Part shown: piece by piece, positions 1,702-5,060 of the stretch
How positions within the stretch are numbered: the first letter of the stretch is position 1
Layout: each line of letters opens with the position of its first letter
Source of the DNA: Aquimarina sp. AU474
Lineage (GTDB): Bacteria > Bacteroidota > Bacteroidia > Flavobacteriales > Flavobacteriaceae
Direction of reading: 5' to 3'
DNA length: 64,000 nucleotides
Assembly (NCBI RefSeq): GCF_900312815.1
Contig: NZ_OMPE01000006.1
Coordinates: 310,001 to 374,000 of the forward strand
Notes under the pieces: generated by a model
What the model was told of the DNA's origin: nothing
The model's input: the letters and a program-made list of their open reading frames with translations, nothing else
Databases searched by the model: none
Translations under genes and position numbers: made by a program

Positions 1702-2070
1702 TTACTTGACAGTCAATGTATATTGTGGTGTTTTATTTAAAGGGCAGAAATATTTGTATGTTCCTTTCTTTAATGTAACTGTATTAGAACTTTCTGTCTT
1801 ACCATCTGCAACTACTTTAGTTACATAAGCAGATGTAATGTGATTCTTAGGATCAGAAGCATCTTTTCCTTCAGGTACTAATACAAATCCAACATCAGTT
1901 CCAACATTATTGTTAGTAATGTTAAAAACATAACTTCCTTCAGAAAGTGTTACTTCTTTTTCAGTAAACTCTCCTTTAGTTTGTTCAAGAGATACATTTT
2001 TTACTTCTTGAGCTTGTGCAGAAAAAGTTACTGCTAAAACAAATGTGAATAATGTGATTAATTTTTTCAT
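1702..2070 (-). CDS. Secreted cupredoxin-like small protein
   Basis: A 122-residue protein with a Sec signal peptide (MKKLITLFTFVLAVTFSAQAQ, cleavage near residue 21). The C-terminal segment KKGTYKYFCPLNKTPQYTLTV resembles the Cys-ligand strand of plastocyanin-type cupredoxins (GxYxFxC). The usual His and Met ligands after the Cys are absent, since the Cys is followed by PLNKTPQ, so a normal type 1 copper site is doubtful. It lies downstream of the AhpD-like gene with a hairpin between them, and may be partly co-transcribed with it. A periplasmic location is likely. The fold assignment comes from motif resemblance only. Confidence 0.7.
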   Translation of the reverse strand: MKKLITLFTFVLAVTFSAQAQEVKNVSLEQTKGEFTEKEVTLSEGSYVFNITNNNVGTDVGFVLVPEGKDASDPKNHITSAYVTKVVADGKTESSNTVTLKKGTYKYFCPLNKTPQYTLTVK

Positions 2071-2198: not shown

Positions 2199-2747
2199 TT
2201 ATATCGCTGCTGTTTCTAATGGTTGAGCTACCGGAAAATCTACAGGAATCTGAGTTGTACTGTGAATATAGTTTGAGATTGTTTTATCTCCTACCAATGA
2301 AATAGTATCAATTAAGTTTCCTTTCGTGTATCCTGCAGCAAAAAAGTTATCAATTACATTTTGGTCCGTTTTACCTCTTTTTTCGGTAATGTTTTTCGCT
2401 AATTTTGCCAATGCATCTAATTTTGAGTCAAAAGAAGCTGCTCCGGCTCGTAATTCTAAAATTTGCTCATCGGTAAAACCATTCATTTTTCCAATTGCAG
2501 TGTGCGCGGATAAACAATAGATACATTCATTTACTTGACTTACAGCTAAGTTAACTACTTCTTTTTCTTTTGCAGATAGAGATGTCTTTGCATTAGAAAA
2601 AGTAAGATAATTTTCTAGGGCAGTATCACTATGTGCGTATGTTGCATATAGATTAGGAACAAATCCTAAAGCTTTATTTAGATTATCAAATATGGCTTGG
2701 TTATTAGCGCTTACTTCATCTCTTGTTGGTACATTAAATGTGCTCAT
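2199..2747 (-). CDS. AhpD-like carboxymuconolactone decarboxylase family peroxidase
   Basis: A 182-residue cytosolic protein of the CMD/AhpD fold. The redox motif E74-C75-x-x-C78-x-x-x-H82 (ECIYCLSAH) is intact and is the proton-relay and peroxidatic site of alkylhydroperoxidase D-like proteins. Members reduce peroxides or handle reactive ring compounds; the substrate cannot be told from sequence. The gene is preceded by one of three copies of a putative AraC-type operator (2871-2896) and a -7 element (CTTTG at 2831-2835, minus strand), leaving a leader of about 80 nt. It is therefore likely induced by the neighbouring AraC-family regulator. Confidence 0.85.
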   Translation of the reverse strand: MSTFNVPTRDEVSANNQAIFDNLNKALGFVPNLYATYAHSDTALENYLTFSNAKTSLSAKEKEVVNLAVSQVNECIYCLSAHTAIGKMNGFTDEQILELRAGAASFDSKLDALAKLAKNITEKRGKTDQNVIDNFFAAGYTKGNLIDTISLVGDKTISNYIHSTTQIPVDFPVAQPLETAAI

Positions 2748-2830: not shown

Positions 2831-2896
2831 CAAAGATCGGGAGAGAGCGATTGTGAAAAAATGATCGTTTTTCCCGATAACATGTCAATATTTCCT
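2831..2896 (-). promoter_or_regulatory. Promoter with AraC-type operator, copy A
   Basis: On the minus strand two direct half-sites (AGGAA and GGGAA) start 21 bp apart and are joined by the conserved block AATATTGACA. The second half-site starts exactly 45 bases before the end of the -7 element GATCTTTG. The -7 differs from TAnnTTTG in its first base, as expected for an activator-dependent promoter. It drives the AhpD-like gene. Copies B and C have the same geometry. Confidence 0.7.
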
Positions 2897-2907
2897 GTGT
2901 TGTTCTT

Positions 2908-3069
2908 TTAGTGTTGTTCTTTTATAAAAGGCTTTTCTGCATCACAATAAAAATCATGAATAGCACTTCTTTCACAATGTGTTTTCGTACTTAATGAAGT
3001 TATAATTCTTTTTTTTCCTTGACGGAAAATTTCTATTAAATTGAAAATTGATTTATTTTGAATTGTCAT
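2908..3069 (-). CDS. Small 53-residue protein of unknown function in the AraC-type regulon
   Basis: ATG at 3069 opens 53 codons ending in TAA at 2908. The product starts MTIQNKSIFNLIEIF and ends FIKEQH. It is basic in its first half, has two cysteines in the second half, and has no signal peptide or membrane segment. It is supported mainly by context: promoter/operator copy B sits 27 bp upstream, with the same spacing as in front of the two neighbouring genes. I do not recognise the sequence. The alternative is that the promoter serves a small RNA or the downstream genes. Confidence 0.45.
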   Translation of the reverse strand: MTIQNKSIFNLIEIFRQGKKRIITSLSTKTHCERSAIHDFYCDAEKPFIKEQH

Positions 3070-3095
3070 TTTGATATTGTTTTAAATTAACAATA

Positions 3096-3161
3096 CAAAG
3101 ATGCGATATAGATGATGCTGAAGAAATGGTTGTTCTTCCCGGAGACTTGTCAATATTTCCC
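3096..3161 (-). promoter_or_regulatory. Promoter with AraC-type operator, copy B
   Basis: Half-sites GGGAA (3157-3161) and GGGAA (3136-3140) read on the minus strand with 21-bp period and the shared AATATTGACAAG block. The -7 element CATCTTTG ends at 3096, again 45 bases from the start of the second half-site. It lies directly upstream of the 53-aa ORF. Confidence 0.7.
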
Positions 3162-3170
3162 GAGCATAAA

Positions 3171-3195
3171 AAAACCTCTGCATTACAGAGGTTTT
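3171..3195 (-). terminator. Hairpin terminator after the DoxX-like gene
   Basis: AAAACCTCTG and CAGAGGTTTT arms with a 5-nt loop follow the stop at 3218 on the minus strand. The arm ends in TTTT and continues into a further T-run from the A-tract at 3168-3174. Confidence 0.75.
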
Positions 3196-3217
3196 GATTT
3201 TAGTCTTGTAATCTTTT

Positions 3218-3589
3218 TTAGAAAAAAATTACTTGTTTTCTGTTTATCCAAAGTATAATAGCACTTAATATAAAGGTAATAACGGCAGTAAAAAATAAGA
3301 TACCACCATCACTGTTAATTTCAATTCCCAGTTTGGTGAGATGTAGCATAATTGCTCCACCAATAATTCCTAGAGTCAACGTTGCTCCAATCCAAACTGT
3401 TCTGGGTATTAATAGTAATATTCCTGCAATCAGTTCTGTAACACCAGTGGCAATACGACCATATGGCTCCATTCCAACTTTTGTGAAAATGTATACGCTA
3501 TCGGGATGGGCAGTAAATTTAAATCTAAGAGTTTGGATCAAGATAATTGCTACGATAATTCGTAGCAATAGGGGTAGGATCTTTTTCAT
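3218..3589 (-). CDS. DoxX-like inner-membrane protein
   Basis: A 123-residue integral membrane protein with four predicted helices (about residues 5-21, 46-62, 67-85 and 98-115), the normal length and layout of small DoxX/DoxD-type proteins. Motifs such as R-F-K-F in the first helix region and G-x-x-E-L-I-A-G-I-L-L in the second helix support this. DoxX proteins are linked to redox or sulfur stress in other bacteria; the biochemical role is unclear. It starts 39 bp after the secreted protein gene and is probably co-transcribed from promoter copy C, ending at the terminator 3171-3195. Confidence 0.8.
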   Translation of the reverse strand: MKKILPLLLRIIVAIILIQTLRFKFTAHPDSVYIFTKVGMEPYGRIATGVTELIAGILLLIPRTVWIGATLTLGIIGGAIMLHLTKLGIEINSDGGILFFTAVITFILSAIILWINRKQVIFF

Positions 3590-3627
3590 TTTTGAGTTTG
3601 TGTTTACTTTTTTGGCTCTATCGAAAA

Positions 3628-4101
3628 TTATAAAACGCTCGGTAAAGCATCTATTTTCCCATTAAAAGTATTCTTTCTTGAGATAATATACAATTCTTCT
3701 AGATTATTATCTTTTCTAAATTGATTGATTAACTCTGGAAGTCGCTCATTTAAGAATTCTGCAAAAGCCTCAGGGTCAGTACTTCTATTTGCTCCTTTAC
3801 GTATGGTTTTCAAGTAAGATATACTCAGGATTTCTAGATTGCTTCTTTCAGAAAGAAACAATAAATACTCGTTATTTTGTTTAGCTTCTTTAATTTTAAC
3901 TTTAAAATTGATACTATTGTCTGCAATTAAGTCATTGTTATAACCGCTAAAATTATTTGTGTATACTACTTCTTCTACTTGATCATTTAAGTATACAGTT
4001 TCTAATTCGTCTTCATAAGTAACCTGTGCATTACCTGTCGAGAACACTAATAATAAAAGACTTAATATTGTGAGTTGGATATGTTGTGAATATGTTTTCA
4101 T
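3628..4101 (-). CDS. Secreted protein of unknown function
   Basis: A 157-residue protein with a Sec signal peptide (hydrophobic stretch LTILSLLLLVFSTGNAQ, cleavage near residue 25). The mature part is acidic with mixed alpha/beta character and no cysteine. I do not recognise the family and see no catalytic motif. It is preceded by operator copy C with -7 element CACCTTTG, leaving a leader of about 57 nt, and is followed closely by the DoxX-like gene. It therefore belongs to the presumed regulon of the AraC-type regulator encoded directly upstream. Confidence 0.75.
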   Translation of the reverse strand: MKTYSQHIQLTILSLLLLVFSTGNAQVTYEDELETVYLNDQVEEVVYTNNFSGYNNDLIADNSINFKVKIKEAKQNNEYLLFLSERSNLEILSISYLKTIRKGANRSTDPEAFAEFLNERLPELINQFRKDNNLEELYIISRKNTFNGKIDALPSVL

Positions 4102-4157
4102 CTTTTCTATATTTTTACCCGAAAAAATTTCGGTGGTTGTTTAACTAAATTATAGTA

Positions 4158-4223
4158 CAAAGGTGGGGCAAAAATCAAAATTAAAACATAGCTCTTCTTC
4201 CTTTAAGCTTGTCAATATTTCCC
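4158..4223 (-). promoter_or_regulatory. Promoter with AraC-type operator, copy C
   Basis: Half-sites GGGAA (4219-4223) and AGGAA (4198-4202) on the minus strand, 21-bp period, with the block AATATTGACAAG between. The -7 element CACCTTTG ends at 4158, exactly 45 bases from the second half-site start. The distal half-site lies inside the last codons of the regulator gene, whose stop is at 4212. Confidence 0.7.
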
Positions 4224-5060
4224 TACGACTTCAAGTTTTAATTGTTTTTTGAATTCAGAGGGAGAAAAAGATGTATGTTTTTTAAACATTCTGCTTAGAT
4301 GAGAGGCATCATCAAAACCTAATTCGTATGCAATCTCCTTAGCAGTTTTTTCTGTATAGATAAGTAGGCGTTTGGCTTCTAGAATAATTCGATCATGAAT
4401 AATCTTTAAGGGACTCTTTTCAAATTTGGCAAAATTATTAGATAATGTCTTAGGTGACTTGAAAAGTTTGTCGGCATAAAACCCCACAGAATGCTCTTCT
4501 CTAAAATTAAACTCAACTAAAGCATTAAATTGTCTAATTAAATCAGCTTGATCTTTAATGCTGTTAAAATCATCTTGCTGCTTAATAAGTCTGGTCGTCG
4601 TAATAATAAATCTAGCCATCAACATACGTAACATTTCTGCCTGTATAGTATCAACTGTGTCCAGTTCTTCAAGGAAAATCTGGTGAAACAATTCTAATTT
4701 ACTGCGTTGTTCGTTATCAAGATGTACAATTGGAATAACACTGTTTCCGTAAAAGAGTACACCCATACAACTAACTTCTTTGTCATGATCTTTAATACAA
4801 TAAAACTCACGGTTAAATTGATAAACAATAAGATCTGATCCGCTTATAAATTTGAAATACTGATTAGGGGTTAGTACCACAATATTATTTATAGGTACCG
4901 TAACAGAAATTCCATCCACCTCTAAAACCGTTTCTTTGTCTTTAACCCAAATAAAAGTATATAAACCTATCACTTCAGATTTTTGATAGGATTGTAATAA
5001 CTCTTCATTGGCTACTTTTAATACGGCTTCGGTCGAAAATTCCTTAAACTCCTTGATCAT
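4212..5060 (-). CDS. AraC-family transcriptional regulator
   Basis: A 282-residue DNA-binding protein. Residues 1-165 form a cupin-like sensing part. The C-terminal 100 residues carry the double helix-turn-helix of AraC/XylS, with the recognisable signature TAKEIAYELGFDDASHLSRM then FKKHTSFSPSEFKK. The last bases of the gene overlap operator copy C, and the three direct-repeat sites with 21-bp period match the two-turn spacing expected for AraC-type binding. It is likely the activator of the AhpD-like, 53-aa, secreted-protein and DoxX-like genes. The inducer is unknown; the AhpD-like and DoxX-like targets hint at chemical or oxidative stress. Confidence 0.9.
   Translation of the reverse strand: MIKEFKEFSTEAVLKVANEELLQSYQKSEVIGLYTFIWVKDKETVLEVDGISVTVPINNIVVLTPNQYFKFISGSDLIVYQFNREFYCIKDHDKEVSCMGVLFYGNSVIPIVHLDNEQRSKLELFHQIFLEELDTVDTIQAEMLRMLMARFIITTTRLIKQQDDFNSIKDQADLIRQFNALVEFNFREEHSVGFYADKLFKSPKTLSNNFAKFEKSPLKIIHDRIILEAKRLLIYTEKTAKEIAYELGFDDASHLSRMFKKHTSFSPSEFKKQLKLEVVGKY

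Follow-up and report, generated by a model that had tools for sequence, protein, structure and literature searches.

The window analysed here is a 64,000-nucleotide stretch of the Aquimarina sp. AU474 genome (contig NZ_OMPE01000006.1, positions 310,001 to 374,000), in which the gene of an AraC-family regulator is followed on the same strand by genes for a secreted protein, a DoxX-like membrane protein, a 53-aa small protein, an AhpD-like protein and a cupredoxin (Table 1). The targets listed in a preliminary description of this DNA, namely the AhpD-like gene, the 53-aa ORF and the secreted protein together with the DoxX-like protein, are as stated there, with domain matches to PF02627 and PF07681. 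Four terminator-like hairpins were found in the window against 1.3 expected, and one of them separates the DoxX unit from the next operator.

Table 1. Genes, operators and promoter elements of the AraC-family regulator locus in the Aquimarina sp. AU474 window
Feature	Position	Strand	Remarks
AraC-family regulator (group 0)	4212..5060	-	HTH_18 E 1.8e-21; N-terminal cupin-like domain and C-terminal double HTH
Operator 3	4189..4222	-	half-sites GGAAATATTGACA (4222-4210) and GGAAGAAGAGCTA (4201-4189); position shared by most of the 80 loci
-7 box CACCTTTG of secreted protein/DoxX unit	4158..4165	-	
Secreted 157-aa protein	3628..4101	-	Aquimarina-type loci only
DoxX-like membrane protein	3218..3589	-	PF07681 E 1.2e-5
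Terminator-like hairpin and T-run	3171..3195	-	between DoxX unit and operator 2
Operator 2	3127..3160	-	half-sites GGAAATATTGACA (3160-3148) and GGAAGAACAACCA (3139-3127)
-7 box CATCTTTG of 53-aa gene	3096..3103	-	
Small protein, 53 aa	2908..3069	-	SIFNLIEIF...THC-x6-HD[FY]YC family; about 75 orthologs
Operator 1	2862..2895	-	half-sites GGAAATATTGACA (2895-2883) and GGAAAAACGATCA (2874-2862)
-7 box GATCTTTG of AhpD-like gene	2831..2838	-	
AhpD-like/CMD protein with CxxC (ECIYCLSAH)	2199..2747	-	PF02627 E 4.7e-16; TIGR00778 E 1.6e-15
Cupredoxin, conserved neighbour	1702..2070	-	PF13473 E 2e-8

Three operator-promoter modules of the architecture GGAAATATTGACAnG-N6-GGAA lie at this locus, all on the minus strand. 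Their first half-sites start with GGAA at 4222, 3160 and 2895, the second GGAA follows exactly 21 bp after the first, and the CTTTG ends at offset 65, which is 45 bases counted from the second (R)GGAA, in all three cases. The identical geometry claimed in the preliminary description is therefore borne out exactly, and the shared block that it reported is present but longer than it had stated, comprising 13 identical bases, GGAAATATTGACA. The first half-site of operator 3 (window 4210-4223) coincides with the last codons and the stop of the regulator gene (GGG AAA TAT TGA), and in outgroup loci (e.g., L126 and L136) a TAG stop stands immediately before the GGAA.

The modules are exceptional in both the window and the genome. 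The pattern GGAA-N17-GGAA-N35..37-CTTTG occurs three times in the window and not once in 60 order-1 Markov sequences, and a search for GGAAATATTGACANGNNNNNNGGAARRA with up to three mismatches returned three matches in the 4.84-Mb genome, which are the three modules, against none for the reversed control. The core AAATATTGACA is present in 15 copies genome-wide, the three modules included, and none of the other 12 is accompanied by a second GGAA and a -7 box at the module spacing. In a whole-genome scan with a sequence-only profile, the three modules, which belong to the training sequences of that profile, ranked first at 55, 53 and 52 bits, the next place reaching 29.8 bits. Copies scattered through the genome, which the preliminary description had named as an outcome that speaks against regulation, were not seen in this motif scan of the 4.84 Mb.

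Scanning of GTDB genomes with the regulator yielded 80 named loci in Flavobacteriaceae, from Aquimarina, Algibacter, Winogradskyella, Psychroserpens, Maribacter, Flavivirga, Seonamhaeicola and other genera. The core gene order in these loci is AraC, site, small protein (ORF53), site, AhpD-like protein and cupredoxin; Aquimarina-type loci carry an extra unit of site, secreted protein and DoxX directly behind the AraC gene, and no site was found upstream of AraC in any of the 80. Together with the window, the loci provide 174 distinct orthologous sites, which share descent, so that counts over them are not independent. The collection pattern fixed the 21-bp spacing and also required TTT[GA] near position 61-65 (one candidate failed), and it left open both the end at exactly 65 and the base that opens the -7 box, so neither was selected for. 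The TTTG ends exactly at position 65 in 166 of the 174. The consensus reads GGAAAaATTGACAAG(t/c)...tagGGAAAAA....CATttTaT...(g)CAtCTTTG(t/c)A, with GGAAAAAt...CA as the repeated half-site and poor conservation of the spacers between.

The second half-site extends to the edge of the -33 region. Promoters of Bacteroidota have been described as a -33 TTTG and a -7 TAnnTTTG (PMC10620806), and the modules resemble these in the TTTG of the -7 box and in lying a short distance upstream of a gene. They differ in that the -33 region reads CATTTT over the 174 sites, without a TTTG consensus, and in that the first T of the -7 box is replaced, by C in 133 and G in 26 sites, T being retained in only 10. 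For comparison, of the 69 other xAnnTTTG[TC]A boxes that precede genes in these loci, 32 begin with T. The earlier observation that the three -7 boxes deviate from consensus at the first base extends to nearly the whole collection, and the missing T is consistent with activator dependence of these promoters.

The regulator has the build expected of a protein acting at such sites. Its AlphaFold2 (AF2) model (pLDDT 85) shows a cupin-like sensor/dimerisation domain of beta-strands 3-82 with two helices, followed by a double HTH DNA-binding domain with recognition helices at 203-210 and 252-263. All Foldseek matches of the model belong to the AraC family, the AraC DNA-binding domain 2k9s was matched by sequence at E 2e-6, and the N-terminal domain resembles the RhaR regulatory domain (TMt about 0.7, at 11% identity). 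Within the sensor domain, a loop FYC-x3-HD-x-EV-x-C carries C88, H92, D93 and C98, which are the same in all of the 81 orthologs and 11 paralogs compared, and the C88-C98 region of the model is of low confidence (pLDDT 58-66). A longer motif, N-R-x-FYC-x3-HD-x-EV-x-C-x-G at residues 83-100, hardly varies among the AraC orthologs and paralogs that were looked at, one of which (L097) belongs to a different family of the order.

Class II activators of the AraC/XylS family act from 21-bp direct-repeat sites, as AraC of E. coli does at araI1-I2 and XylS at Pm. The window system is like these and AggR in the AraC fold with two HTHs, in direct half-sites two turns apart, in a proximal half-site at -35/-33 and in the set distance between the sites and the promoter element downstream; its sites show two direct half-sites 21 bp apart (fixed by the search pattern) and the constant distance to the -7 box. 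In AggR promoters, likewise, the distance from the site to the -10 element is fixed (PMC6392122). The difference from AraC/XylS class II systems lies in the promoter, which is of the Bacteroidota -33/-7 type and not sigma-70, in the letters of the half-sites and in the presence of three copies in one cluster.

We propose that two monomers of the regulator encoded at 4212-5060 would occupy, in head-to-tail orientation, the direct half-sites GGAAAAAT(TGA)CA, 21 bp or two helical turns apart, with the promoter-proximal half-site abutting the -33 region. Since CAtCTTTG, the -7 box, does not begin with the T of TAnnTTTG, the promoter would be weak when the activator is absent, and the three modules would serve one local regulon as class-II-like promoters that depend on the activator. 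We regard such binding next to the -33 region with activation as very probable; the position of the second half-site would be that of a class II activator, and activation rather than repression is judged from this position, which does not by itself tell the two apart. An AraC-type protein bound at these sites could instead mainly repress, blocking RNA polymerase at -33 until an inducer comes, for which the abutment of the proximal half-site on the -33 region offers a suitable place. We consider this very unlikely, given that AraC-family proteins on 21-bp direct repeats just upstream of a core promoter are typically activators and that the conserved sub-consensus -7 boxes suit activation.

The involvement of this regulator, as opposed to another factor, was assessed from the co-occurrence of sites and AraC genes in 52 genomes of the genus, a strong site being one with a best E below 1e-8, group 0 (the window regulator and its orthologs) being assigned at 60% identity or more and its sister paralog, group 2, at 76% or more to the group-2 reference. 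Strong sites were found in 39 of the 52 genomes, and all 39 hold a group-0 AraC (29 genomes) or a group-2 paralog (12), two of them holding both; neither AraC was found in the remaining 13. Ten genomes have strong sites and the group-2 paralog only. In nine of these the locus was fetched (L315-L319 and L323-L326, all Aquimarina), and there the cluster and its sites are kept, the adjacent AraC gene is absent and the group-2 paralog is encoded elsewhere in the genome, L318 having part of the cluster in duplicate with two more sites; the tenth (G333) was covered by the search only. The argument from adjacency therefore fails in these genomes, whereas the argument from the subfamily holds, and the proposed model requires that in them the sister paralog acts at the sites.

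Further evidence comes from a third group of paralogs (group 1), which bear an operator of their own at their own 3' end, GGAAaAATTGCCAAC...GGAATAGTTACCTA, with the same 21-bp/65-base geometry, in one example ahead of an isochorismatase-OsmC-thioredoxin operon. A group-1 paralog is also present in the AU474 genome (L096/L278, G000:C7:68947-69765); its 3'-end operator contains GGAAGAATTACATAC, and behind it lies a second AhpD-like gene, 60% identical. Across the groups the recognition helix of HTH1 (KTLSN, in KTLSNNF) is near-invariant, as is GGAA, and the helix of HTH2 varies (DASHLSR in the window regulator, DxQxFSR in group 1, and EAGHFSK), as does the downstream box, which suggests that HTH1 may read the constant GGAA and HTH2 the variable TTGACA box.

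These data bear on a reading in which the shared block is recognised by some other DNA-binding protein or by an alternative sigma factor, with the AraC gene a mere neighbour. The retention of sites in ten genomes without a group-0 gene would agree with it, but all ten hold the sister paralog and strong sites never occur without one or the other (39 of 39, against none of the 13); moreover, a 21-bp direct repeat in front of a TTTG -7 box that is ordinary in other respects suits an AraC protein and not a sigma factor, and the group-1 genes carry their own version of the operator. We judge this reading distinctly unlikely. The proposal in the preliminary description that the AraC-type protein acts through two-turn repeats is hence supported by the conservation of site and geometry, by the co-occurrence and by the letters of the group-1 operator; its appeal to proximity loses force in the ten genomes, and activation over repression is judged from position. 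That a promoter fragment devoid of regulatory meaning was recently copied in tandem to give the three modules, as their 13 identical bases in one genome might suggest, has a negligible chance of being right and is already contradicted, since spacers and flanks differ among the three and orthologous triplets are kept in dozens of species while the spacers diverge.

With activation by the AraC-type regulator as the favoured reading, the core regulon would consist of the small Cys/His protein of about 50 aa and the AhpD-like CxxC protein, joined in Aquimarina by the unit of secreted protein and DoxX and by a SnoaL-like gene. The preliminary description had counted the 53-aa ORF among the targets, rightly, but had overlooked that it belongs to a conserved small-protein family of marine Flavobacteriaceae and is a core target. 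Conserved blocks of this family show 426 synonymous against 285 nonsynonymous codon changes, with an excess of third-position substitutions, and the residues S-F-L-F and HC...D[FY]YC are invariant; judged from this sequence record, the ORF is a real gene. Neither Pfam nor NCBIfam has a family that the protein matches above threshold, its AF2 model (pLDDT 61) gives no usable fold, and among 296 sampled genomes of the order the family was found only in the family of the window, one marginal match aside. It is possibly metal- or redox-active. The cupredoxin gene, which stands directly behind a site in three genomes (G003, G005 and G007), is a possible member of the regulon.

The fourth target candidate, an 118-aa SnoaL-like gene, is located elsewhere in the AU474 genome (L250/L293, G000:C10:467034-467516; site at G000:C10:467163, 29.8 bits). 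Its orthologs have a strong group-0 type site in several relatives, and in one genome (G008) the gene lies inside the main cluster. Genomes in which a group-2 regulator is adjacent have a site of the ATCTA type at this gene. A clean operator swap between group 0 and group 2 at this gene can be called suggestive only, as the cluster sites of group-2-only genomes are mostly ATTGACA/ATCGACA and the tree needs only one to three changes; the cluster sites kept in those genomes imply that the specificities of the two groups overlap. Module-like sites were also noted before a 469-aa protein of tandem glutaredoxin-like repeats (CPDC) in L259 (G419; site at 4873, reverse strand, E 5.5e-4), and, in L253 (G006:C1:382530, 27.7 bits), in front of a membrane protein of 117 aa with the SPW repeat.

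The nearest functional parallel is RclR-RclX of P. aeruginosa, in which RclR activates the AhpD-like rclX under HOCl/HOSCN (PMC7950407), the resemblance being one of working and not of identity. Both systems have an AraC-family gene beside an AhpD-like CxxC gene, presumably its target (PMC7950407). The RclR-rclABC regulon of E. coli, with a small protein and a membrane protein (PMC7464077), is alike in these two products and in conserved cysteines of the sensor domain, and both RclR systems differ from the window in operator, small protein and promoter type. Orthology to RclR was rejected in a comparison with the E. coli protein, which shows no similarity beyond the AraC fold; BLASTP of the window regulator against it gave no significant similarity (best E 0.23 over 17 residues). 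E. coli RclR has a redox-active pair, Cys-21/Cys-89; in the window regulator C88 and C98 are invariant, whether or not they are the counterpart of this pair.

It can be speculated, with some reserve, that the regulator responds to stress from oxidants or from thiol-reactive/electrophilic compounds, with the invariant C88-x3-H92-D93-x-E95-V-x-C98 loop as the sensor, and that the regulon is a protective response made up of the CxxC AhpD-like protein, the Cys/His small protein, DoxX, the SnoaL-like protein and the cupredoxin neighbour. Such a signal is plausible, since the targets of the different groups include CxxC AhpD-like, OsmC, thioredoxin and glutaredoxin-like proteins. The loop itself says little about the specific inducer, because it is of low confidence in the model and common to paralogs with partly different targets.

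The switch is real, and its presence beside the same regulator and the same genes across Flavobacteriaceae marks an apparently undescribed regulon, the genes of which hint at protection from oxidants. No described flavobacterial regulon of this kind was found in the open literature, which is not proof of absence; in kind, the sequences place it with known AraC-family class II regulation, the regulon itself being apparently undescribed. Groups 0, 1 and 2 all bear the FYCxxxHDxEVxC sensor loop, and it is conceivable, at somewhat less than even chances, that a rule holds across Bacteroidota by which the three groups share the rigid 21-bp/65-base architecture, differ mainly in the HTH2 box and drive redox-protection genes. 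If so, the redox-protection set of group 0 would include a previously unnamed small Cys/His protein of about 50 aa. Few architectures of activator-dependent promoters have been defined so far in Bacteroidota. Here half-sites, spacing and the range of allowed -7 boxes are set by well over 100 natural variants, which also identify the regulator, so that the rule is directly testable in one promoter. The analysis also brings to light, in bacteria common in the sea, a conserved family of small proteins and a putative oxidant-stress regulon.
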